Part shown: piece after piece, positions 53,391 through 63,356 of the stretch | How positions within the stretch are numbered: position 1 is the stretch's first letter | How the letters are laid out: each line of letters opens with the position of its first letter | Source of the DNA: Gemmatimonadales bacterium | GTDB taxonomy: Bacteria; Gemmatimonadota; Gemmatimonadetes; Longimicrobiales; Gaopeijiaceae | NCBI GenBank assembly: GCA_007695225.1 | Contig: REED01000136.1 | Span: 1-64,000 of the forward strand | Direction: 5' to 3' | DNA: 64,000 nucleotides | Position numbers and translations under genes: made by a program | Notes under the pieces: model-generated | Databases searched by the model: none | What the model was told of the DNA's origin: nothing | What the model saw: the letters and a program-made list of their open reading frames with translations, nothing else

Positions 53391-54257
53391 ATGGGAAGCC
53401 TCTACGTTATCAGTACCCCTATCGGGAACCTCGAGGACATCACCCTCCGGGCCATCCGGATCCTGGGAGATGTCGCGGCGGTCCTGGCAGAGGACACCCG
53501 GAGGACAGGAATCCTGCTTCGGCACCTCGGCCTCACCACGCCGCTCCTCTCCTATCATCAGCACAACGAGGAGGCCCGGTCGCGGGAGGCGCTGGGCCGG
53601 CTGGGAGCAGGAGAGGATCTGGCGCTGGTTTCCGACGCGGGTACTCCCCTGGTGTCGGACCCGGGAGAACGGCTGACCGCTCGGGTGCTGGACGCCGGGC
53701 ACCGGGTAGTGCCCATACCGGGACCGTCGGCAGTCCTGGCAGCCCTCGTGGCTTCAGGGCTCCCGGCCCTTCCCTTCACCTTCCTGGGTTTTCCACCTCG
53801 GAAGGGCCGCCAGCGGGAGGCGTTCCTGGAGCGGGTGGTGGACGCCCCGGAGACCACGGTCTTCTTCGAGTCCCCGGAGCGGACATCGGTCCTCCTGGGG
53901 GAGCTGGCGTCCAAGGCGGATCCGGAGCGAAGGGGCGTCGTGACCCGGGAGCTCACGAAGCTCCATGAAGAGGTCCGAAGGGGAACCCTCGGGGAGCTGG
54001 CCCGCTACTATGGAGAGAATCCCCCTCGAGGCGAGGTGACCCTTGTGGTGGCTCCCGCCGAACCGCCTTCACCCGGGGAGACGGCCCAGGTGGACGATGC
54101 CGCGGCCCGCTCCCTGGGGGCCGCTCTCCTGGGGGAGGGTCATCGCCCCAGCCGGGCGGCCCGGGAAGTGTCGCGGCGACTGGGGATTCCCCGGAACCAG
54201 GCCTACGAGATCCTCCAGTCCCTCTCCTCACCCTCCAGACCGGAAGGCGCCGAGTGA
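53391..54257 (+). CDS. rsmI: 16S rRNA (cytidine-1402 2'-O)-methyltransferase
   Basis: Tetrapyrrole-methylase-fold enzyme that 2'-O-methylates C1402 of 16S rRNA. The 288-residue product begins GSLYVISTPIGNLEDITLRAIRIL and has LAEDTRRTGILL, LALVSDAGTPLVSDPG, VPIPGPSAVLAAL, FLGFPPRKG, TVFFESPERT and the Glu/Leu-rich KLHEEVRRG. The C-terminal helical extension (SRAAREVSRRLGIPRNQAYEI) is typical. Its stop overlaps the start of the DUF4159 gene. Confidence 0.93.
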   Translation: MGSLYVISTPIGNLEDITLRAIRILGDVAAVLAEDTRRTGILLRHLGLTTPLLSYHQHNEEARSREALGRLGAGEDLALVSDAGTPLVSDPGERLTARVLDAGHRVVPIPGPSAVLAALVASGLPALPFTFLGFPPRKGRQREAFLERVVDAPETTVFFESPERTSVLLGELASKADPERRGVVTRELTKLHEEVRRGTLGELARYYGENPPRGEVTLVVAPAEPPSPGETAQVDDAAARSLGAALLGEGHRPSRAAREVSRRLGIPRNQAYEILQSLSSPSRPEGAE

Positions 54258-55114
54258 GTCCCACGCCACGCCCGCGACGGCACAGACGTCCGCTGCCCAC
54301 GCGGGCGATCCCCAACGGGAGGCTTCTCTTGTGGGTACTGGGTCTCTGCCTCCCTGCGGTCCTGCTCGCAGGGGCCGGCGGAGCCCTGGCCGCGTCCGGA
54401 GCCGGGGTGGCAGGAGTGGCCGGCATCACCGGCGTGGCCGGCGCCGGAATGGGATCCGGATTCGATCCCGGCGCCCGGGTGGCGGAGGGAGTGCCGATGC
54501 CCCTTTCCCATGCCAGCCTCACCGTGGGACGCCTCCAGTACGGGGGCGGGGGTGACTGGTACGCCAACCCCTCCTCCCTGCCCAACCTCCTGGCGGCCAT
54601 TCGGGAGCGGACCGGGGTGCCGGTGGCGGAACGGGAGGTGGTGGTCTCCCCCCTGGATCCGGGTCTCCGGGACGTGCCCTTCCTCCACATGACGGGGCAC
54701 GGGAATGTGGTCTTCACCCCGGAAGAGCGTCGGGCTTTGCGGAGCTACCTGGAGGGCGGTGGGTTCCTCCATGCCGACGACAACTACGGGATGGACGAGG
54801 CTTTCCGCCGGGAAATCGCGCTCCTCTTTCCTGATCGGGAGATGGTGGAGCTTCCTCCGGAACACCCCGTCTTCCACGTGGTCTATTCCTTTCCCGAGGG
54901 GATTCCCAAGATCCATGAGCATGACGGCCATCCCCCCCAGGCCTTCGGGGTCTTCCATGAGGGTCGTCTCATGGTCCTCTATTCCTACGAGACGGATCTG
55001 GGGAACGGGTGGGAGGATCCCGAGGTTCATGGAAACCCGCCGGAAATCCGGGAGGCGGCACTGCGCATGGGGGTGAACCTCTTCATCTACGCCCTCAGCC
55101 AGAGGAGCCCGTGA
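54254..55114 (+). CDS. DUF4159 protein, exported, amidotransferase-like fold
   Basis: The 286-residue product starts at GTG (GTGA overlap with rsmI). It has a membrane/signal segment (RLLLWVLGLCLPAVLLAGAGG) and then a Gly/Ala/Val-rich repeat (GVAGVAGITGVAGAG). The DUF4159 domain contains RLQYGGGGDWYANPSSLPNLL, FLHMTGHGNVVFTPEERRALRSYLEGGGFLHADDNYGMDEAF and a C-terminal segment with IPKIHEHDGHPPQAFGV. The GHG and GGGFLHADD elements resemble class I amidotransferase folds but lack a clear nucleophile Cys. Function unknown; likely periplasmic. First gene after rsmI of a coupled run with DUF4175. Confidence 0.75.
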   Translation: MSPTPRPRRHRRPLPTRAIPNGRLLLWVLGLCLPAVLLAGAGGALAASGAGVAGVAGITGVAGAGMGSGFDPGARVAEGVPMPLSHASLTVGRLQYGGGGDWYANPSSLPNLLAAIRERTGVPVAEREVVVSPLDPGLRDVPFLHMTGHGNVVFTPEERRALRSYLEGGGFLHADDNYGMDEAFRREIALLFPDREMVELPPEHPVFHVVYSFPEGIPKIHEHDGHPPQAFGVFHEGRLMVLYSYETDLGNGWEDPEVHGNPPEIREAALRMGVNLFIYALSQRSP

Positions 55115-58100
55115 CTCCCCTGGACCGGAGGACCGTGGCGGGAATCCTGGCCGGGGTCCGGGCCCGGGTGCGCAGAGCCGGCATCCTGGCTTCCATCCTC
55201 CTGGGGGTAGGCGCGGCGGCATCCGTCCTCCCCCTGGGGTGGGTCCTGGGCGGGACGGACGGATGGCGGGCGGGGTCGCCCCTCCCCCTGATCCTGGTCC
55301 TGTCCGGCCTCATCGCCGCCGCGGTCGTGGCCGGGTGGTCGGTGCTCCGGATCCGGGACCGCACCGATGAAGCCAATCTGGCCTCGGATCTGGAGCGGAG
55401 CACGGGGCTTCCGTCGGGGGCGCTCCGGGCCCAGTTGGAGCTGGGTCGGGGGATTCCCGGAGGCGTGTCGGGGGGGCTGGCCCAGGCGGGGGAATCGGCG
55501 CTGGTGCATCGCCTGGGCCAGGGTCCGCTCCACCCCCGAGCAGCAGAGGCCGAGACCCGCCGTCTGCTCCGGACCGGAGCCCTCCTCACCGGCGGCGTGG
55601 CCATTCTGGCCCTGGCGCTTCTGGCCCTGGCTCCCGAACGGACCCGGGCAACATGGGCGGGGCTGGCAAGCCCCATGGCGGTCCTTCTCCCCGATCCGCT
55701 CCCGCCCCTGCAGGTCCACCCCGGCGACGCCCAGCTTCCCCGGGGGGACCTGGTCTCCATCCAGGTGCAGGCTCCGGGGCGGGCGACGGTGACCCTGCAC
55801 TGGGAGTCGGCGGGAGAGGTGCCCCGCTCCGCCGAGCTTCCCGTGATCGAGGGGGGAGCCGAGGGGGAGATCCCCGAACTCCGAGGCGTCACCCGATATC
55901 GCGTCACCGCCCCCGATGGCGCCCGTTCCCCGGAGTTCACCCTCCGGGCCCTGGATCCCCTCCTCCTGGCGGGGCTGGCTCTGGAGCTCCGGTTTCCCCC
56001 CCACACCGGCCTTCCCCCGGAGATCATCCGAGGGGAGCCCGGGCTCCTCCGCATTCCCCAGGGGACGCGGATCGGGATTTCCGGAGCCTTCCTGGGGGAG
56101 GGAGAGGCGGTGCTCCTCCGGGACCCGGAGGGGCGGCGACTGGCGGCCTTTCCAGTGGAGGGCGAGGCATTCCAGGGGGAGTGGCGTCCCGGGTCCTCGG
56201 TGACGGCCGACTGGGAGATCGTGGGAGACGCTCCAGCGGGCCTTCGGCTTCCGGTCCCACTGGAGGTGGAGCTCATCCCCGACGCCCCCCCCTCCGTTTC
56301 CCTGGACACGGAGTCCGGGACTCGACAGGTCCCGGCGAACCTGAGGGTGGCCCTTCGAATGGAGGCTTCCGACGACTGGGGACTGGACTGGGTGGAGCTG
56401 GAGGTGGCCGTGGAGGATCCCAGGGGCCGGCGCGGGGAGCCGGCGCTGGACCGGTCCGAGGCGGGGAACCGCCGCTCCGTGGTGCTCCGCCCGGTGCTGG
56501 ACATCTCGGGGTGGGGGTTGGAGCCGGGATCCCGGCTCCGCCTCCGGGCGCGGGCGGCGGACCGGGCTCCGGTGCCCGGGGTCACCGTGGGGTCGGAGCT
56601 CGTCCTGGAGCTTCCCGGGGCGAACCAGCTCCGGGATGAGGCCCGGGACCAGGTGGAGCGGAGCGCCGGAGAGGTGGAGGAACTGGCGGAGCGGGCGGCC
56701 CGGGGGGAGAGTGACCTCCGCGACCGGGCCCGGGAGCTGGCAGGGGAGGAGGCCCGTGCCGGCGGCCAGCGCTCCGGGGGCGACGGGTTTGAGGAGCGGG
56801 AGGAGACCCGGCGACTCCTGGAGGAACAGGCCGCGGTGATGGACGAGCTGGAGCGGATCCGGGAAGAGATGTCCCGTGCCCGGGAATCCCTGGGCGGCGA
56901 CCAATCGGACTCGGAGCTCTCCCGCCGGCTCGGTGAGCTGGAGCGCCTCCTGGAGGAACTGGAGGCCGGCGAGAGTCGGGAGCGGGTAGGTGAGATCCTG
57001 GAACGTCTCACGGAGGGGGGAAGTCCCCCGGCGGCCCAGGAGCTGGAGGACGCCGCCGCTCGGCAGGAAGCCCTTCGGGAGCGGCTCGAAGAGGCCCTGG
57101 AGCGGTTCAAGCAGGCGGCGCTGGAGAACGCCTTCGAGGGTGCCGAGGACGCAGCCCGGGAGCTCACCCAGGCCCAGGAGGAGATGGCCGATCAGCTCCG
57201 GGACGGTGGGGACCCGGAGGCCCAGGAGGCGCTTCAGGCCGACGCCGAAGGGCTGAGGGAGCGGATCGAGGCGCTGGAGGAGCGGCTCCGGGCGGCCGGT
57301 GAGATGGAGGCGGGAGATCGGGCGGCCCAGGCCGGCCGGGAGATGGAGGAGGCCGCTCGGTCCATGGAAGCCGCGGCAGAGGCGGCCCGGGACGGGAACG
57401 CAGGGGAGGCCGGGGAGCGAGGCGACGAGGCGGGGGAGGCGGCCCGTTCCGCCATGGAGGAGCTGGAGCAGGCCCGGATGGACTGGATGGAGGAGTGGGA
57501 GGAACGGATCCGGGAGGCGCTTCGTCGGGCGGCCCAGGACGCGGTGGCCCTGGCCCGTCGACAGGGGGAAATCCGCGACGAACTCCAGTTCGCCGGGGCG
57601 CTGCGGCGGGGAGCGCTCCTGGCGGAGGAGGCGGTCCTCCTGGAAGGGCTCCGGAATCTGGGGACCGCGGTGGGGCTCGCCACGCGCCAGGCCGCTTCGG
57701 TGGGCCGGGAGCTGTCGGGGGCCCTGGGCGAAGCCATGGAAGCGGTGGACCGGACCGCCGTGGGACTTCGGAACGCGGCTCCCCGGGCCGGTCCCTACGC
57801 ATCCGCCGGGCAGGCCCAGGCGGCCATGAACCGGGTGGCCATCCTGGCCCTCCAGGGGATGGAGCAGGTCGGCCAGCGAGGAGCGGCGGATGCCAGCCAG
57901 GAACTCCTGGACGCCCTGGAGGAGATGGCGGGGCAGCAGGAGGCGCTGAACCAGGAGACGGGGCAGCTCTCCCAGGACCCGGGGCAGGACGGGGCAGCCC
58001 AGCAGTTGGAGGAGCTGGCGGGGACCCAGGAGGCCATGGCGGGTGCCATGGGGGAACTGGCCGATCACCCCGATGGAGAGAGTGTGGCCGGGGACCTGGA

Positions 58101-58437
58101 AGCCATGGCCCAGGAGGCCCGGGAGATCGCCGAGAGCCTGCAGGGTGGCCGCATCGAGGAGGAGACCCTGCGGCGCCAGGAGGAACTTCTGGAGCGCCTT
58201 CTTACCGCGGGTCGGACCCTGGAGCGGGACGGTCCCACCGAACGCCGGGAGGGGACCACCGCCGGTCCGGTGGACCGTCCTCCCGTGGGGGCCCTCCCCC
58301 CGGACCTCCTCCGGGGGAGCGAGGTGCCCCTCCCATCCACCCAGGCGCTGGAGGCCCTTTCTCCCGCCGAGCGGCGGCTGGTCCTGGACTACTTCGACCG
58401 CCTGAACCGGGGCCTGACCCCGGGAGGGGGAAGATGA
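55111..58437 (+). CDS. DUF4175-like giant membrane-anchored coiled-coil protein
   Basis: The 1108-residue protein starts at GTG 55111 (overlap with the DUF4159 stop). It has about three N-terminal membrane helices (residues about 24-46, 58-79 and 155-177) and a beta-rich region (about 180-500). A very long Glu/Arg/Ala-rich coiled coil follows (about 510-960), with repeated MEEAARSMEAAAEAARD-type units. A helical tail ends with STQALEALSPAERRLVLDYF. This matches DUF4175-type proteins. The coiled region is probably periplasmic and could span or brace the envelope; that is inference. The minus-strand frame over the same bases is only a shadow of the repetitive code. Confidence 0.75.
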   Translation: MTPLDRRTVAGILAGVRARVRRAGILASILLGVGAAASVLPLGWVLGGTDGWRAGSPLPLILVLSGLIAAAVVAGWSVLRIRDRTDEANLASDLERSTGLPSGALRAQLELGRGIPGGVSGGLAQAGESALVHRLGQGPLHPRAAEAETRRLLRTGALLTGGVAILALALLALAPERTRATWAGLASPMAVLLPDPLPPLQVHPGDAQLPRGDLVSIQVQAPGRATVTLHWESAGEVPRSAELPVIEGGAEGEIPELRGVTRYRVTAPDGARSPEFTLRALDPLLLAGLALELRFPPHTGLPPEIIRGEPGLLRIPQGTRIGISGAFLGEGEAVLLRDPEGRRLAAFPVEGEAFQGEWRPGSSVTADWEIVGDAPAGLRLPVPLEVELIPDAPPSVSLDTESGTRQVPANLRVALRMEASDDWGLDWVELEVAVEDPRGRRGEPALDRSEAGNRRSVVLRPVLDISGWGLEPGSRLRLRARAADRAPVPGVTVGSELVLELPGANQLRDEARDQVERSAGEVEELAERAARGESDLRDRARELAGEEARAGGQRSGGDGFEEREETRRLLEEQAAVMDELERIREEMSRARESLGGDQSDSELSRRLGELERLLEELEAGESRERVGEILERLTEGGSPPAAQELEDAAARQEALRERLEEALERFKQAALENAFEGAEDAARELTQAQEEMADQLRDGGDPEAQEALQADAEGLRERIEALEERLRAAGEMEAGDRAAQAGREMEEAARSMEAAAEAARDGNAGEAGERGDEAGEAARSAMEELEQARMDWMEEWEERIREALRRAAQDAVALARRQGEIRDELQFAGALRRGALLAEEAVLLEGLRNLGTAVGLATRQAASVGRELSGALGEAMEAVDRTAVGLRNAAPRAGPYASAGQAQAAMNRVAILALQGMEQVGQRGAADASQELLDALEEMAGQQEALNQETGQLSQDPGQDGAAQQLEELAGTQEAMAGAMGELADHPDGESVAGDLEAMAQEAREIAESLQGGRIEEETLRRQEELLERLLTAGRTLERDGPTERREGTTAGPVDRPPVGALPPDLLRGSEVPLPSTQALEALSPAERRLVLDYFDRLNRGLTPGGGR

Positions 58438-59171
58438 GCGCCTCTCCGGGTCCGGGTTGTTCCGTTACGGTCCCCGTGTGGTCGGCGGCCCTGCAGACGG
58501 CCCTGCTGACCGCGACCTGCCTGCTTCTGGCCCCGCCGGTCCCGGGCCACGCCCTGACGCCGGAAGCGGCCGTCCGCTCCCTGTCCGGCCCGGGCCCCAT
58601 CTCTCCGGAGTTCCTCTCCGGCGACACCATCCCCTCGGCGGAGGAGGTGGCCCGTCTCCTGGGCGCCCAGGACTCCCGGGACCAGGGGCTCCAGGCCATC
58701 ATCCTACGGGCCTCCTCCCTCCCCACCGACCGGGCCACCCTCTGGATCCAGCTCCTGGCCACTGCGGAGCGAACGGGGGTGGAGGCGGGAGGGCTGGCCG
58801 CCCGGGCCGTGGCCCGGGCCGATGAGCGGGATGCACCCGGGGGCGTGGCCCTCCTCCTCCAGGGGGTGGAGGGAGGGCTCCCGGAAGAGGACCGGGCGGC
58901 CCTATTGGCCCTGGCTTCCCATCTTCTCACGGATCCGGAGCCGGTTCGGGCCGCCGAGCTTCGCCGACGCCTCATCCGGGAATGGCCCGACGCCCTGGAG
59001 ATACCGGAGGCCCAGGTCCAGCTTGCTCGCCACCTTCTGGGCCAGGGGGGCGAGGCGGCCCGGGAGGAGGCGGTGGAGATCCTGGAAGCGCTGCTCCTCC
59101 GGCGACCCAGCCATCCCCTGGCCCCCGAAGCTCGTCGGCTGCGCCAGGGTGCGCTCCGCCCCGGTTCCTGA
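58434..59171 (+). CDS. secreted helical-repeat (TPR-like) protein
   Basis: The 245-residue product overlaps the DUF4175 stop by four bases. It has a signal peptide (LLTATCLLLAPPVPGHA) and then a series of antiparallel helices: LATAERTGVEAGGLAARAVARA, ALLALASHLLTDPEPVRAAELRRRLI and AREEAVEILEALLLRRPSHPLAPEARRL. The spacing and the conserved Ala/Leu/Pro pattern resemble TPR-type repeats, so a scaffold role is likely. No enzyme motif. Its stop shares a base with the next start (TGATG). Confidence 0.6.
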   Translation: MSASPGPGCSVTVPVWSAALQTALLTATCLLLAPPVPGHALTPEAAVRSLSGPGPISPEFLSGDTIPSAEEVARLLGAQDSRDQGLQAIILRASSLPTDRATLWIQLLATAERTGVEAGGLAARAVARADERDAPGGVALLLQGVEGGLPEEDRAALLALASHLLTDPEPVRAAELRRRLIREWPDALEIPEAQVQLARHLLGQGGEAAREEAVEILEALLLRRPSHPLAPEARRLRQGALRPGS

Positions 59172-60466
59172 TGTCGAAAGGTGCTCAGATGAAGATCCGA
59201 CCCATCCCAGGTCTCCTCCCAGGCCTCGTCCTGGCCGTCCTCCTGGTCTTCCTCCCCGGAACGGCGGCGGCCCAGTACCTCCTGGTGCCCATGGATCGGT
59301 CCCAGTCGAACCACCTCCGAGCCTATGGACTCACCTATTCGGTGCTGGAGGATGCGGGAGAGGCGGAGTGGCTCCTCAACTATCGGGGAGGGAGCTTCCT
59401 CCTTCCGGATCAGGATCGGGTCCGTCGCGAGGCGGCCCTCCGAGGGGTCTCCTTCCAGGCGGTGGATGGCGGGGAGGTGGCCCGGATCCGGGGGATCATC
59501 CAGAACGGGAACATGGACGCCGTTCCCCTGGAGACCGCCCCCCGCATCGCGGTCTACACCCCTCCGAACACCCCGCCCTGGGACGATGCGGTGACCCTGG
59601 CCCTGGAGTATGCCGGAATTCCCTACGAAACGGTGTGGGACGGGGATGTCCTGGAGGGGCGCCTTGCCGACTTCGACTGGCTCCACCTCCACCATGAGGA
59701 CTTCACCGGGCAGTATTCCAAGTTCTTCCTCACCTACGCTGGGACGTCGTGGCTCCAGGAGGAGGTGGCCCGGAACCAGGAGATGGCCCGGCGCTTCGGA
59801 TACCCCCATGTGCCGGCGCTGAAGCGAGCGGTGGCGGAGACCATCCGCTCCTACGTCCTGGAAGGGGGATTCCTCTTCGCCATGTGCTCCGCCACGGAGA
59901 CGCTGGACCTGGCCCTTGCCTCCCACGCCACCGACATCACCGCCTCCTTCGCCAACGGACGTCCCCCGGACCGGGACGCGTCGGCCCGGATGGACTGGTC
60001 CCGGGCCCTGGCCTTCCAGGGGGCAGAGGTCCAGACCTCTCCCTCGGTGAGCGCCTTTTCGGACATCGACACCCACCAGGTGAACACTCCCTGGCGCCAG
60101 GCCCTCTCGTCTTTCACCCTCTTCGAGTTCTCCGCCAAGATCGATCCGGTGGCCTCCATGCTGGTGCAGAACCACGAGGCGGTTCTCCGGGACTTCTATG
60201 GCCTCACCACGGCCTTCTCGGAAGATCGTCTGAAGCCCGGTGCCACCATCCTGGCCCGGGACCGGGACCGGGTGAAGTACGTCCATGGGACGGCAGGAGA
60301 GGGGACGTGGACCTTCTTCGGCGGCCACGACCCCGAGGACCCGGAGCACAAGATCGGCGACGCCCCCACCAATCTGGACCTGCATCCCGACTCCCCGGGA
60401 TACCGTCTGATCCTCAACAACGTCCTCTTCCCGGCCGCTCGCCCCCGGCCCCTCAAGACCCAATGA
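59171..60466 (+). CDS. exported protein of a family often labelled 'asparagine synthetase B', function unknown
   Basis: The 431-residue product has a signal peptide (LVLAVLLVFLPGTAAAQ) and begins YLLVPMDRSQSNHLRAYGLTYSVLEDAGEAEWLLNYRGGSFLL. I recall similar proteins in Bacteroidota and Gemmatimonadota carrying the automatic label asparagine synthetase B, but no such domain is visible. The centre has APRIAVYTPPNTPPWDDAVTLALEYAGIPYETVWDGDVL, FDWLHLHHEDFTGQYSKFF, and SYVLEGGFLFAMCSATETLDLAL, an outline like class I amidotransferase folds with Cys in FAMCSA. The C-terminus contains TFFGGHDPEDPEHKIGDAPTN. It is likely periplasmic and partner to the DUF4159/DUF4175 proteins. Confidence 0.65.
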   Translation: MSKGAQMKIRPIPGLLPGLVLAVLLVFLPGTAAAQYLLVPMDRSQSNHLRAYGLTYSVLEDAGEAEWLLNYRGGSFLLPDQDRVRREAALRGVSFQAVDGGEVARIRGIIQNGNMDAVPLETAPRIAVYTPPNTPPWDDAVTLALEYAGIPYETVWDGDVLEGRLADFDWLHLHHEDFTGQYSKFFLTYAGTSWLQEEVARNQEMARRFGYPHVPALKRAVAETIRSYVLEGGFLFAMCSATETLDLALASHATDITASFANGRPPDRDASARMDWSRALAFQGAEVQTSPSVSAFSDIDTHQVNTPWRQALSSFTLFEFSAKIDPVASMLVQNHEAVLRDFYGLTTAFSEDRLKPGATILARDRDRVKYVHGTAGEGTWTFFGGHDPEDPEHKIGDAPTNLDLHPDSPGYRLILNNVLFPAARPRPLKTQ

Positions 60467-60479
60467 GGGGCGTGACGGG

Positions 60480-63356
60480 ATGAGGGAACCTGGAGGGCCC
60501 GTCGAGGCGGGTCCCGCCACGGGGCCGGGGGCTGGGGCGGGGACGGGGGCGGGGCGGGTGGCACGCCCGGGACTGCGCCCGGATCTCCGCCCAGATCTGC
60601 GCCCAGATCTGCGCCTGGATCCGGAGGCGGCGGAACGGATTCGGACCGAGATCCAGCGGGCCGGAGGCCGGGAGATCTGCTTCCTGGCCCAGGTGACCGA
60701 GGATCGGCGCATCGTCCACCCCAGGGCCGTGGCCCGGGGGAACCACCAGGCCGTGCTGGCCGCCTCCCGGGACGCCGAGGCGGGGGAGATCCTCCTCCAC
60801 AACCATCCCTCGGGGGTCCTGGAGCCCTCGGAGCCGGATCTCCTCCTGGCCGCCCGGGTCTACGAGGCGGGGCTCGGAACGGCCATCACCGACAACCACG
60901 CCCAGGCGCTCTACGTGGTGGTGGAGCCGCCGGAGCCCCGGACCCGAGCCCTCCTGGACCTGGCCCTCCTGGAAGGGCTCCTGGCGCCGGAGGGGGCGCT
61001 GAGCCGGATGGCCCCGGGGTATGAGGACCGCCCGGGCCAGCGTGAGATGCTCCGGATGGTGGCCAACCGCTACAACGAGGGTGGGGTGGCGGTGGTGGAG
61101 GCGGGGACCGGGACGGGGAAGTCCCTGGCCTATCTCATCCCCGCCGCGCGGTGGGCGCTGGAGAACGGGGAGCGGACCGTGGTCTCCACCAACACCATCA
61201 ACCTGCAGGAGCAATTGGTGGCAAAAGACCTCCCCCTGGTCCGTCGGCTGGTGGGAAAGGAACTCACCTGGGCCATGGTGAAGGGGCGGGGGAACTACAT
61301 CTCCATCCGGCGACTCTTCCTGGCGGCGGAATCGGCGCCCACCCTCTTCGAGGACGACCGCAGCCAGGAGCTGGAGGCGCTGGGGGAGTGGATCCGCACC
61401 TCCCCTGATGGATCCCTCTCCGACCTTTCCGCCCCCCCCTCCGACGAGGTCTGGGAAGAGGTCCGCTCCGACGGGGACATCTGCCTGAAGGCCCGCTGCC
61501 CCCACTTCCAGGAGTGCTTCTACCAACAGTCCCGCCGGAGGGCCGCTGCTGCCGACATCCTGGTGGCGAACCACGCTCTCCTCTTCTCCGATGTCCAACT
61601 CCGCCGGGCCCTGGAGAACTGGACCCAGTCGGCGGTTCTCCCGCCGTATTCCCACGTGATCCTGGACGAGGGCCACAACGCCGAGGACGCCGCCACCTCC
61701 CACCTGGGGGCGGAGGTGACCCGGACCGGGCTCTTCCGACTCTTCTCCCGGCTGGACCGGAACGGAAAGGGGGTCCTGGCGGCGGTGGAGCAGATCCTGG
61801 CCGCGTCCCCGTCCAGCGTGGAACGGGACGACCTCCTGAGGCGCATCGAGACCCGGCTCCGTCCCGCCGCCCTGGAGGCCCGGGAGGAACTCCACCGGTT
61901 CTTCGACGCCCTGGAGCCCGGGGTCCCGGGGCCGGAAGAGGAACCCCTCCGCCTGGGACGGGGGGACGCCCGGGATCCCGCCGAGGACGCGGCACTCCTG
62001 GAGCGCCTGGACCGGTTGGTGGGGGGACTCCTACGGGTGGGACGGGAGGTGGAGGAGGTCCGGATCCGGGTGGAGTCCGATGAAACCCTCCGGGACCGAC
62101 TGGAAGCCCGCCTTCTGGACCTCCGCTCCATGGAGCGTCGATTGGAGAGTGCCCGGAACGCCCTCCGCCTGGTCCTGGACCCCCGGGAGGAGGGGGACCG
62201 TTTCGTGCGCTGGATCGAGGGGCGGGGACGCCGGGGTGATGCCCTCCGGAACGTAGTGTTGGCGGCGGCACCGGTGGAGCCCGGTTTCCTCCTTCGGGAA
62301 TCCCTGTTCCGGAAGGTGGAGACGGCAGTGGTGACCTCGGCTACCCTGACCGTGGGGGAAGGGGATTTCCGCTTCATCCGGGGCCGGCTTGGCCTGGATG
62401 AGTCTCCGGAGGAGCCCGAGCTGCCGCTGCCGCGGGCGGGCGAGACCTTCGCAGACGGATCCCTGGTCCTGGATCCGGGGGAGGGGTGGGGGATGGGGCC
62501 CAAGGAGCCATGGGAGGAAGGGGGCAGCGGGGATGGGGTCGGCGGTGGGGCCGGGCCCGAGGGTGACCACGGTGGGAACGGAGAGATGGAGGCGCCCCTC
62601 TCGGTGACCGAGGCGCGGGTGCCGTCTCCCTTCGACTACACGACCCAGACCCTCCTGGCCGTTCCCACGGACCTTCCCGGTCCCCGGGACGGCGAGGCCT
62701 TCCACCACGCTACGGCGGCGGTGGCCGCCGAGCTGGCGGAGATGACCGGGGGCGGGATCTTCCTCCTCTTCACGTCGTACCGGGCCCTCCAGGCCACGGC
62801 GGCACGGCTCCGCCGGGACGGGGTGGACAAGCGGTTCCCCCTCCTGGTCCACGGTGAGGGGCCCCGTTCCCAGCTCCTCTCCCGCTTCACCGCCGCCGGA
62901 AACGGAATCCTCCTGGGGACCTCCTCCTTCTGGGAGGGGGTGGACGTCCCCGGCGATCCCCTCCGGGGGCTCATCCTCCAGAAGATCCCCTTCCGGGTCC
63001 CCACCGAGCCCATCACCCAGGCCCGTACCGAGGCCATCCAGCGTCGGGGCGGCAACGGATTCATGGGATACCAGGTTCCCCTGGCGGCCCTCCGCCTCCG
63101 GCAGGGATTTGGTCGGCTGATCCGCTCCCGAACCGACCGGGGGGCGGTCCTTCTCCTGGACCGGCGGATCCTCCACGCCCGCTACGGTCCCCGGCTTCGG
63201 GCGGGGCTCCCCGATGCTCCCCTGGTGAAGGGGCCCTGGAGAGAGCTCACGGTTGGGCTACGGCGTTTCTACCGGGCGGGAGGTGACCCTGGAGACGCGG
63301 GAGAAGAGGCCCCGAGGGCCTCCCGGTTGCCGCGGCGCCGGACCGGGGTAGATTAG
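60480..63356 (+). CDS. DinG/XPD-class helicase with N-terminal JAMM (RadC-like) domain
   Basis: A 958-residue fusion. Residues about 50-150 form a JAMM/MPN metalloprotein domain: Glu65, His107 and His109 in LLHNHPSG and Asp120 in EPSEPD, the same HxHP-x6-SxxD spacing as RadC. Residues 180 onward are an SF2 helicase of the DinG/XPD class: Walker A AGTGTGKS (208-215), DEGH (396-399), then ATLTVGE, LLFTSYRALQ, LGTSSFWEGVDVPG and LRQGFGRLIRS. Fe-S ligands Cys335, Cys340 and Cys346 are present, but the first ligand (NYLC in DinG) is Ser275 (NYISIRRL). The N-terminal 48 residues carry 12-bp repeats. Start 14 bases after the previous gene. DNA repair or R-loop processing is likely; the JAMM role is unknown. 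Confidence 0.85.
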   Translation: MREPGGPVEAGPATGPGAGAGTGAGRVARPGLRPDLRPDLRPDLRLDPEAAERIRTEIQRAGGREICFLAQVTEDRRIVHPRAVARGNHQAVLAASRDAEAGEILLHNHPSGVLEPSEPDLLLAARVYEAGLGTAITDNHAQALYVVVEPPEPRTRALLDLALLEGLLAPEGALSRMAPGYEDRPGQREMLRMVANRYNEGGVAVVEAGTGTGKSLAYLIPAARWALENGERTVVSTNTINLQEQLVAKDLPLVRRLVGKELTWAMVKGRGNYISIRRLFLAAESAPTLFEDDRSQELEALGEWIRTSPDGSLSDLSAPPSDEVWEEVRSDGDICLKARCPHFQECFYQQSRRRAAAADILVANHALLFSDVQLRRALENWTQSAVLPPYSHVILDEGHNAEDAATSHLGAEVTRTGLFRLFSRLDRNGKGVLAAVEQILAASPSSVERDDLLRRIETRLRPAALEAREELHRFFDALEPGVPGPEEEPLRLGRGDARDPAEDAALLERLDRLVGGLLRVGREVEEVRIRVESDETLRDRLEARLLDLRSMERRLESARNALRLVLDPREEGDRFVRWIEGRGRRGDALRNVVLAAAPVEPGFLLRESLFRKVETAVVTSATLTVGEGDFRFIRGRLGLDESPEEPELPLPRAGETFADGSLVLDPGEGWGMGPKEPWEEGGSGDGVGGGAGPEGDHGGNGEMEAPLSVTEARVPSPFDYTTQTLLAVPTDLPGPRDGEAFHHATAAVAAELAEMTGGGIFLLFTSYRALQATAARLRRDGVDKRFPLLVHGEGPRSQLLSRFTAAGNGILLGTSSFWEGVDVPGDPLRGLILQKIPFRVPTEPITQARTEAIQRRGGNGFMGYQVPLAALRLRQGFGRLIRSRTDRGAVLLLDRRILHARYGPRLRAGLPDAPLVKGPWRELTVGLRRFYRAGGDPGDAGEEAPRASRLPRRRTGVD
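60573..60620 (+). repeat. four 12-bp repeats at the start of the helicase gene
   Basis: Units of the form CTGCGCCCAGAT, with one to two changes each, encode LRPDLRPDLRPDLRLD. Confidence 0.85.

Follow-up and report, generated by a model that had tools for sequence, protein, structure and literature searches.

Do five genes that follow one another on a single strand, joined by overlaps of a few bases, encode one system or merely an operon of mixed content? The question is raised by contig REED01000136.1 of a Gemmatimonadales bacterium, of which 64,000 nucleotides (the window) were analyzed. On the forward strand at 53391-60466, rsmI is followed by genes for a DUF4159 protein, a DUF4175-type protein, a TPR-type protein, and a protein here termed AsnBl, with successive overlaps of 4, 4, 4, and 1 bases. 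A first-pass annotation had described these overlaps, and its coordinates were correct, including where each frame starts and stops. The functional unit is the last four of these genes, and rsmI and the downstream dinG are bystanders. The genes are coupled by the same order over several phyla, by matching presence and absence of three of them, by loss as a block, and by a domain fusion. On balance, we lean slightly toward one functional unit in which the four proteins form an inner-membrane-anchored periplasmic complex for envelope upkeep across the Fibrobacteres-Chlorobi-Bacteroidetes (FCB) group. The first-pass proposal of an undescribed multigene envelope system is thus supported by gene order beyond the Gemmatimonadota and by co-inheritance in the Bacteroidota, and a literature search found no paper describing the four-gene set.

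Conservation and loss of the cassette

AsnBl is present in 218 of 249 Gemmatimonadota genomes (87.6%), and the order trx-rsmI-DUF4159-DUF4175-TPR-AsnBl-dinG extends across most families of the class-level Gemmatimonadota. With a threshold of E < 1e-40 for operon-type DUF4159 and of E < 1e-20 for DUF4175, the former was found in 212/218 genomes with AsnBl versus 2/31 without it, and the latter in 216/218 versus 3/31; these cross-tables were compiled manually from listings, with 11 unlisted negatives obtained by subtraction. In the two AsnBl-less genomes that have operon-type DUF4159 (G131 and G231), the contig ends inside the cassette. Empty sites, at which rsmI is directly followed by dinG, occur in nine AsnBl-less genomes from three families (f1 g18, f1 g20, f3 g33, three genomes of f5 g47, and three of f5 g39). 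Because operon-type DUF4159 is absent from 29 of the 31 AsnBl-less genomes and rsmI abuts dinG in nine, the cassette was lost as one block. Among the lineages with this loss are f3 and, within f5, the genera g39, g47, and g61.

Relatives of AsnBl outside the Gemmatimonadota were taken from the best 80 in 84,980 species genomes; nearly all of these 80 belong to the FCB group, with identities of about 48-56% outside the Gemmatimonadota. Gene order, which the first-pass annotation had offered as a check, is kept well beyond that phylum. The four-gene order without rsmI is found in Neomarinimicrobiota (L116, L121, and L122), KSB1 (L123 and L127), Krumholzibacteriia of the Krumholzibacteriota (L129), and FCB or unnamed lineages (L112 and L160), and the three scored genes keep this order in Eisenbacteria (L110). 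Incomplete sets are present in Latescibacterota and on one Bacteroidota contig, a TPR-AsnBl pair without the other two alongside on contigs of Balneolia and Calditrichota, and a DUF4175-TPR pair in Cloacimonadota. Among 27 such genomes, 26 encode an operon-type DUF4159 at some location.

An even sample of 118 Bacteroidota genomes was scored for AsnBl, DUF4159, and DUF4175. The three are found in the identical 83 genomes (70%) and are missing from the same 35; DUF4159 and DUF4175 are neighbors in 32 of the 83, with a constant order. A small number of losses may account for the 35 absences; the Gemmatimonadota contribute several further losses. The first-pass annotation had regarded scattering of the genes in most relatives as fatal to its proposal; they are not so scattered, and in the Bacteroidota they are co-inherited even where they are. 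Exact co-inheritance predicts that deletion of any one part gives the same phenotype.

Organization of the locus

The features of the locus are listed in Table 1. Because the rsmI/DUF4159 and DUF4159/DUF4175 overlaps recur across Gemmatimonadota loci, the overlaps of the run exceed chance. Gene overlap alone, however, cannot delimit the functional unit, since in 17 of 30 relatives (Gemmatimonadota loci) AsnBl and dinG overlap too; in the window itself a gap of 13 bases separates them. The earlier boundary of the run at 60466 is therefore not upheld. Membership of rsmI, also claimed earlier, had to be dropped, as this gene is kept in 29 of the 31 Gemmatimonadota genomes without AsnBl and is not a neighbor of the cassette in the other phyla that have it. 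An ordinary coupled operon is accepted as the explanation for rsmI and dinG and rejected for the other four genes.

Table 1. Genes, junctions, and conserved codons of the locus (window coordinates)
Feature	Position	Strand	Remark
rsmI, 16S rRNA (cytidine-1402-2'-O)-methyltransferase; co-transcribed bystander	53391..54257	+	TIGR00096, E 3.9e-61; Pfam match firm
rsmI/DUF4159 junction, 4-base stop/start overlap GTGA	54254..54257	+	overlap kept in 22/29 Gemmatimonadota loci
DUF4159 protein, 286 residues, exported	54254..55114	+	PF13709
DUF4159/DUF4175 junction, 4-base stop/start overlap GTGA	55111..55114	+	4-base overlap in 29/34 Gemmatimonadota loci
DUF4175-type protein, 1108 residues	55111..58437	+	PF13779, below cutoff in window copy
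DUF4175/TPR junction, 4-base stop/start overlap ATGA	58434..58437	+	
TPR-type exported helical-repeat protein, 245 residues	58434..59171	+	firm TPR matches in relatives at same position
TPR/AsnBl junction, TGATG, 1-base overlap	59169..59173	+	
AsnBl, exported, 431 residues, predicted class-I-amidotransferase-like fold	59171..60466	+	no Pfam/NCBIfam family
Invariant Cys239 codon of AsnBl, nucleophile-elbow position between β strand and helix	59885..59887	+	
Invariant His386-Asp-Pro-Glu389-Asp390 codons of AsnBl, candidate rest of catalytic triad	60326..60340	+	
dinG-type helicase, downstream bystander	60480..63356	+	Helicase_C_2 and DEAD matches

The proteins of the cassette

By hydropathy, the DUF4175-type protein has three membrane segments (residues 22-48, 54-81, and 152-176), which are followed by a β-rich region, a long helical region rich in Ala, Glu, and Arg, and a conserved C-terminus; the DUF4159, TPR, and AsnBl proteins have one N-terminal hydrophobic region each. 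Among the FCB relatives of the DUF4175-type protein, 17 of 18 match PF13779 at E ≤ 0.01 (best, 5.7e-31), as do 10 of 27 in another set of relatives, and a full-length profile match across phyla joins the group of the window protein to the FCB group (E = 1.9e-94, 1001 columns). Judged from these profiles, the orthologous group of the window protein as a whole is homologous to recognized DUF4175 proteins. A membrane-anchored N-terminus and a homologous central region are shared with PF13779 DUF4175 proteins, with AdvA, and with TIGR02302 of alphaproteobacteria, which we take to be one family with DUF4175. The protein of the locus differs from all of these in its length of ~1100 residues, its long helical part, and its FCB-specific set of partners, and AdvA carries just part of the DUF4175 domain. 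AdvA is essential for cell division in A. baumannii (PMC7481262), and RSP_0730, a TIGR02302 protein, is listed in a table of R. sphaeroides binding sites of CenR, an envelope regulator (PMC9275681). For Azorhizobium, the title of a cited paper reports exopolysaccharide overproduction upon deletion of a distant DUF4175 relative. The predicted location of the proteins and these distant relatives together point to an envelope role.

For AsnBl, the predictions are export and a class-I-amidotransferase-like fold with an invariant Cys at the nucleophile position. Its AlphaFold2 (AF2) model (mean predicted local distance difference test score, 86.8) gives partial structural matches to 2gk3, 3fij, 3soz, PdxT, and TrpG (E = 1e-5 to 2e-3); the top Foldseek match, 8aa2_G (utilisome), had a root mean square deviation of 9.1 and a template modeling (TM) score of 0.36 and was not used. 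None of 32 AsnBl members matched a Pfam or NCBIfam family above noise, ThuA-like PF06283 included, and a sequence search of the PDB returned no relatives. Across 88 aligned sequences, which come from many phyla, some 80 positions are kept in at least 98.5%. Among them are Cys239, which lies between strand 234-238 and helix 240-250 of the model, and His172, His175, Glu176, and Asp177, while His386, Asp387, and Glu389, which follow strand 378-383, are invariant. The predicted fold of AsnBl and DUF4159 and the Cys at the nucleophile elbow of AsnBl are shared with class-I glutamine amidotransferase-like proteins (ThuA-like, Peptidase C26, and the GH42 amidotransferase-like domain), whereas AsnBl differs from these in being exported and in its extra N-terminal α/β domain, its distinct invariant motifs, and its lack of a Pfam match. 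The first-pass annotation had recognized amidotransferase-like segments in two exported proteins, and the predicted folds of AsnBl and DUF4159 agree with this.

The leader of AsnBl is mostly of the Sec type. A Tat-type RRxF/W-L motif is present instead in 7 of 32 members (L040, L043, L044, L048, L073, L083, and L084), in some Gemmatimonadota lineages, and suggests that these proteins may be exported in folded form.

The DUF4159 protein is a clear member of PF13709 (224.8 bits against a cutoff of 25.9, E = 9.7e-67), and its AF2 model resembles PDB 4i66 (Hoch_4089, a structural-genomics protein). The fold is predicted to be class-I-amidotransferase-like and related to that of AsnBl. The mature part of the protein has no Cys, and Gly-His-Gly, Asp-Asp, and His-x-His-Asp motifs are invariant across relatives. 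Hoch_4089, of the same family and fold, is a solved protein without known function, whereas the locus copy is a small exported protein that stands alone and is linked to DUF4175. A direct profile-profile comparison of AsnBl and DUF4159 aligned just 15 columns with a probability of 15.7%, and common descent is not claimed. In the literature search, DUF4159 was named by no paper and DUF4175 by a single one.

The TPR protein of the window matches TPR weakly (E = 0.79, no significant Pfam family); its full-length relatives reach E = 6.9e-27. It is 565-629 residues long in most Gemmatimonadota, and the window copy is a shortened form. The closest relatives of the window (L034, L081, and L088) likewise have TPR proteins shrunk to 216-274 residues.

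Proposed function and alternatives

The four proteins likely form a complex, whose biochemical function we infer. The DUF4175-type protein would be the inner-membrane anchor and periplasmic scaffold, with its three N-terminal membrane segments, β domains, and a helical arm of ~500 residues. DUF4159 would dock on it as a noncatalytic, ligand- or metal-binding amidotransferase-like domain, and the TPR protein would form the bridge to AsnBl, a putative Cys-dependent amide or peptide hydrolase or amidotransferase-like enzyme acting on an envelope substrate. The complex would serve envelope upkeep or assembly and not asparagine synthesis.

Several observations weigh against this proposal. The genes can be separated: family f7 has DUF4159 elsewhere, the sister class f10 has a DUF4159-DUF4175 pair apart from AsnBl, and AsnBl of the Bacteroidota never lies within 5 kb of DUF4159 or DUF4175, so tight co-expression is not required. 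The TPR protein is weakly conserved, and its co-inheritance was left unscored. The window DUF4175-type protein scores 23.1 bits against PF13779, under the curated cutoff of 27.3, and the envelope link outside the FCB group depends on distant DUF4175 relatives. The best PDB matches of AsnBl span part of the chain, with a TM score of about 0.3 on the query, and its catalytic triad is a candidate derived from secondary structure and conservation.

A first alternative, which we consider unlikely, is that a MoxR/Bat-type system uses the cassette as its periplasmic output arm, with a MoxR ATPase and DUF58/BatA proteins acting on it in trans under envelope or oxidative stress. One argument for this comes from the window's own genome, where contig C17 (L003:3733-10674) carries MoxR-DUF58-BatA directly followed by a fusion protein of 1090 residues; residues 204-435 of this protein match the β region of DUF4175 (E = 2.5e-11), and its C-terminus is DUF4159. 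Like the cassette, such MoxR-DUF58-BatA ("Bacteroides aerotolerance") clusters thus contain a DUF4159 domain and a homologue of the DUF4175 β part. The cassette differs from them in lacking MoxR, DUF58, and BatA, in having DUF4159 and DUF4175 as separate genes, and in its added TPR protein and AsnBl, and the C17 cluster is a second, paralogous system in this genome. Five Bacteroidota genomes likewise have a second, weak match to DUF4159 that is no more than about 5 kb away from a weak match to DUF4175. MoxR, DUF58, and BatA were absent from the window cassette and the other cassette loci searched, save that MoxR and DUF58 lie near AsnBl in Latescibacterota L136 (12667-14680; L212 is the same place) and MoxR in Saprospiraceae contig L159 (4574-5533), at distances of about 2-5 kb. 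These near-neighbor cases in two genomes are too few to make MoxR or DUF58 a part of the cassette. Moreover, the cassette and the MoxR-linked cluster act like distinct systems, as the weaker type of DUF4159 match, characteristic of the MoxR-linked copy, is often retained in genomes from which the cassette was lost.

It is rather improbable that AsnBl and DUF4159 are instead a pair of ThuA- or amidotransferase-like enzymes that process periplasmic small molecules or sugars, with DUF4175 and TPR as a docking platform that serves nutrient use and not envelope upkeep. The structural matches include ThuA-like and GH42/amidotransferase-like folds, both proteins show dense conservation of His, Asp, and Glu, and folded export is suggested for the Tat-type AsnBl members, all of which is consistent with such a pair. 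However, no transporter, SusCD, or glycosidase genes were noticed adjacent in the neighborhoods examined by cluster or Pfam, and a niche catabolic enzyme would not usually retain ~50% identity across phyla.

An operon of housekeeping and unknown genes, coupled in translation and sharing a promoter but no common function, would account for rsmI and dinG, which overlap equally tightly and have no obvious envelope link, and for the Bacteroidota cassette parts that stand beside RsmE or YbeY. For the four genes, this explanation is largely refuted by the exact co-occurrence of the three scored proteins, without linkage, in 83 of 118 Bacteroidota genomes, by the block loss that leaves rsmI adjoining dinG, by the DUF4175-like/DUF4159 fusion, and by the recurrence of the cassette, minus rsmI, in other phyla, and we give it little credence.

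A metabolic run with AsnBl as a genuine asparagine synthetase or glutaminase can be practically dismissed, since the sole support is the first-pass label "AsnB-like," a likeness in name alone, whereas 0 of 32 members match Pfam or NCBIfam above noise, neither a class-II (N-terminal nucleophile, Ntn) amidotransferase domain nor a synthetase domain is present, and AsnBl has a signal peptide and a predicted class-I-type, not Ntn-type, fold. Public annotation presumably gives AsnBl a similar name. An "asparagine synthetase B" of the Bizionia iron regulon could not be tied to AsnBl.

For the proposed envelope complex, what is already known is its parts, as named domains of unknown function, and a relative of two of them in the MoxR/Bat cluster. 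AsnBl is ~50% identical from Gemmatimonadota to Bacteroidota and is present in 87.6% and 70% of the sampled genomes, yet no family model of Pfam or NCBIfam covers it. If the proposal is true, envelope biology throughout a superphylum gains a shared component. A bolder version, which we regard as doubtful, is that of an ancestral periplasmic machine that defines the FCB superphylum; here, a DUF4175 arm in the inner membrane, a TPR adaptor, and a pair of amidotransferase-like proteins, one an enzyme and the other receptor-like, would carry out an envelope reaction without counterpart in the cell-wall, Lol, Bam, Lpt, and Tol systems.

Neighboring genes

In the dinG-type helicase of the window, residues 76-131, close to the N-terminus, give a weak match to a RadC-like JAB domain. 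In several Bacteroidota (L178-L182 and L190), DUF4159 lies directly behind the gene for the rRNA methyltransferase RsmE, comparable to its position behind RsmI in the Gemmatimonadota. In several others (L198, L199, and L203), DUF4175 is followed by an HATPase_c_2 (anti-sigma-like) gene and YbeY.

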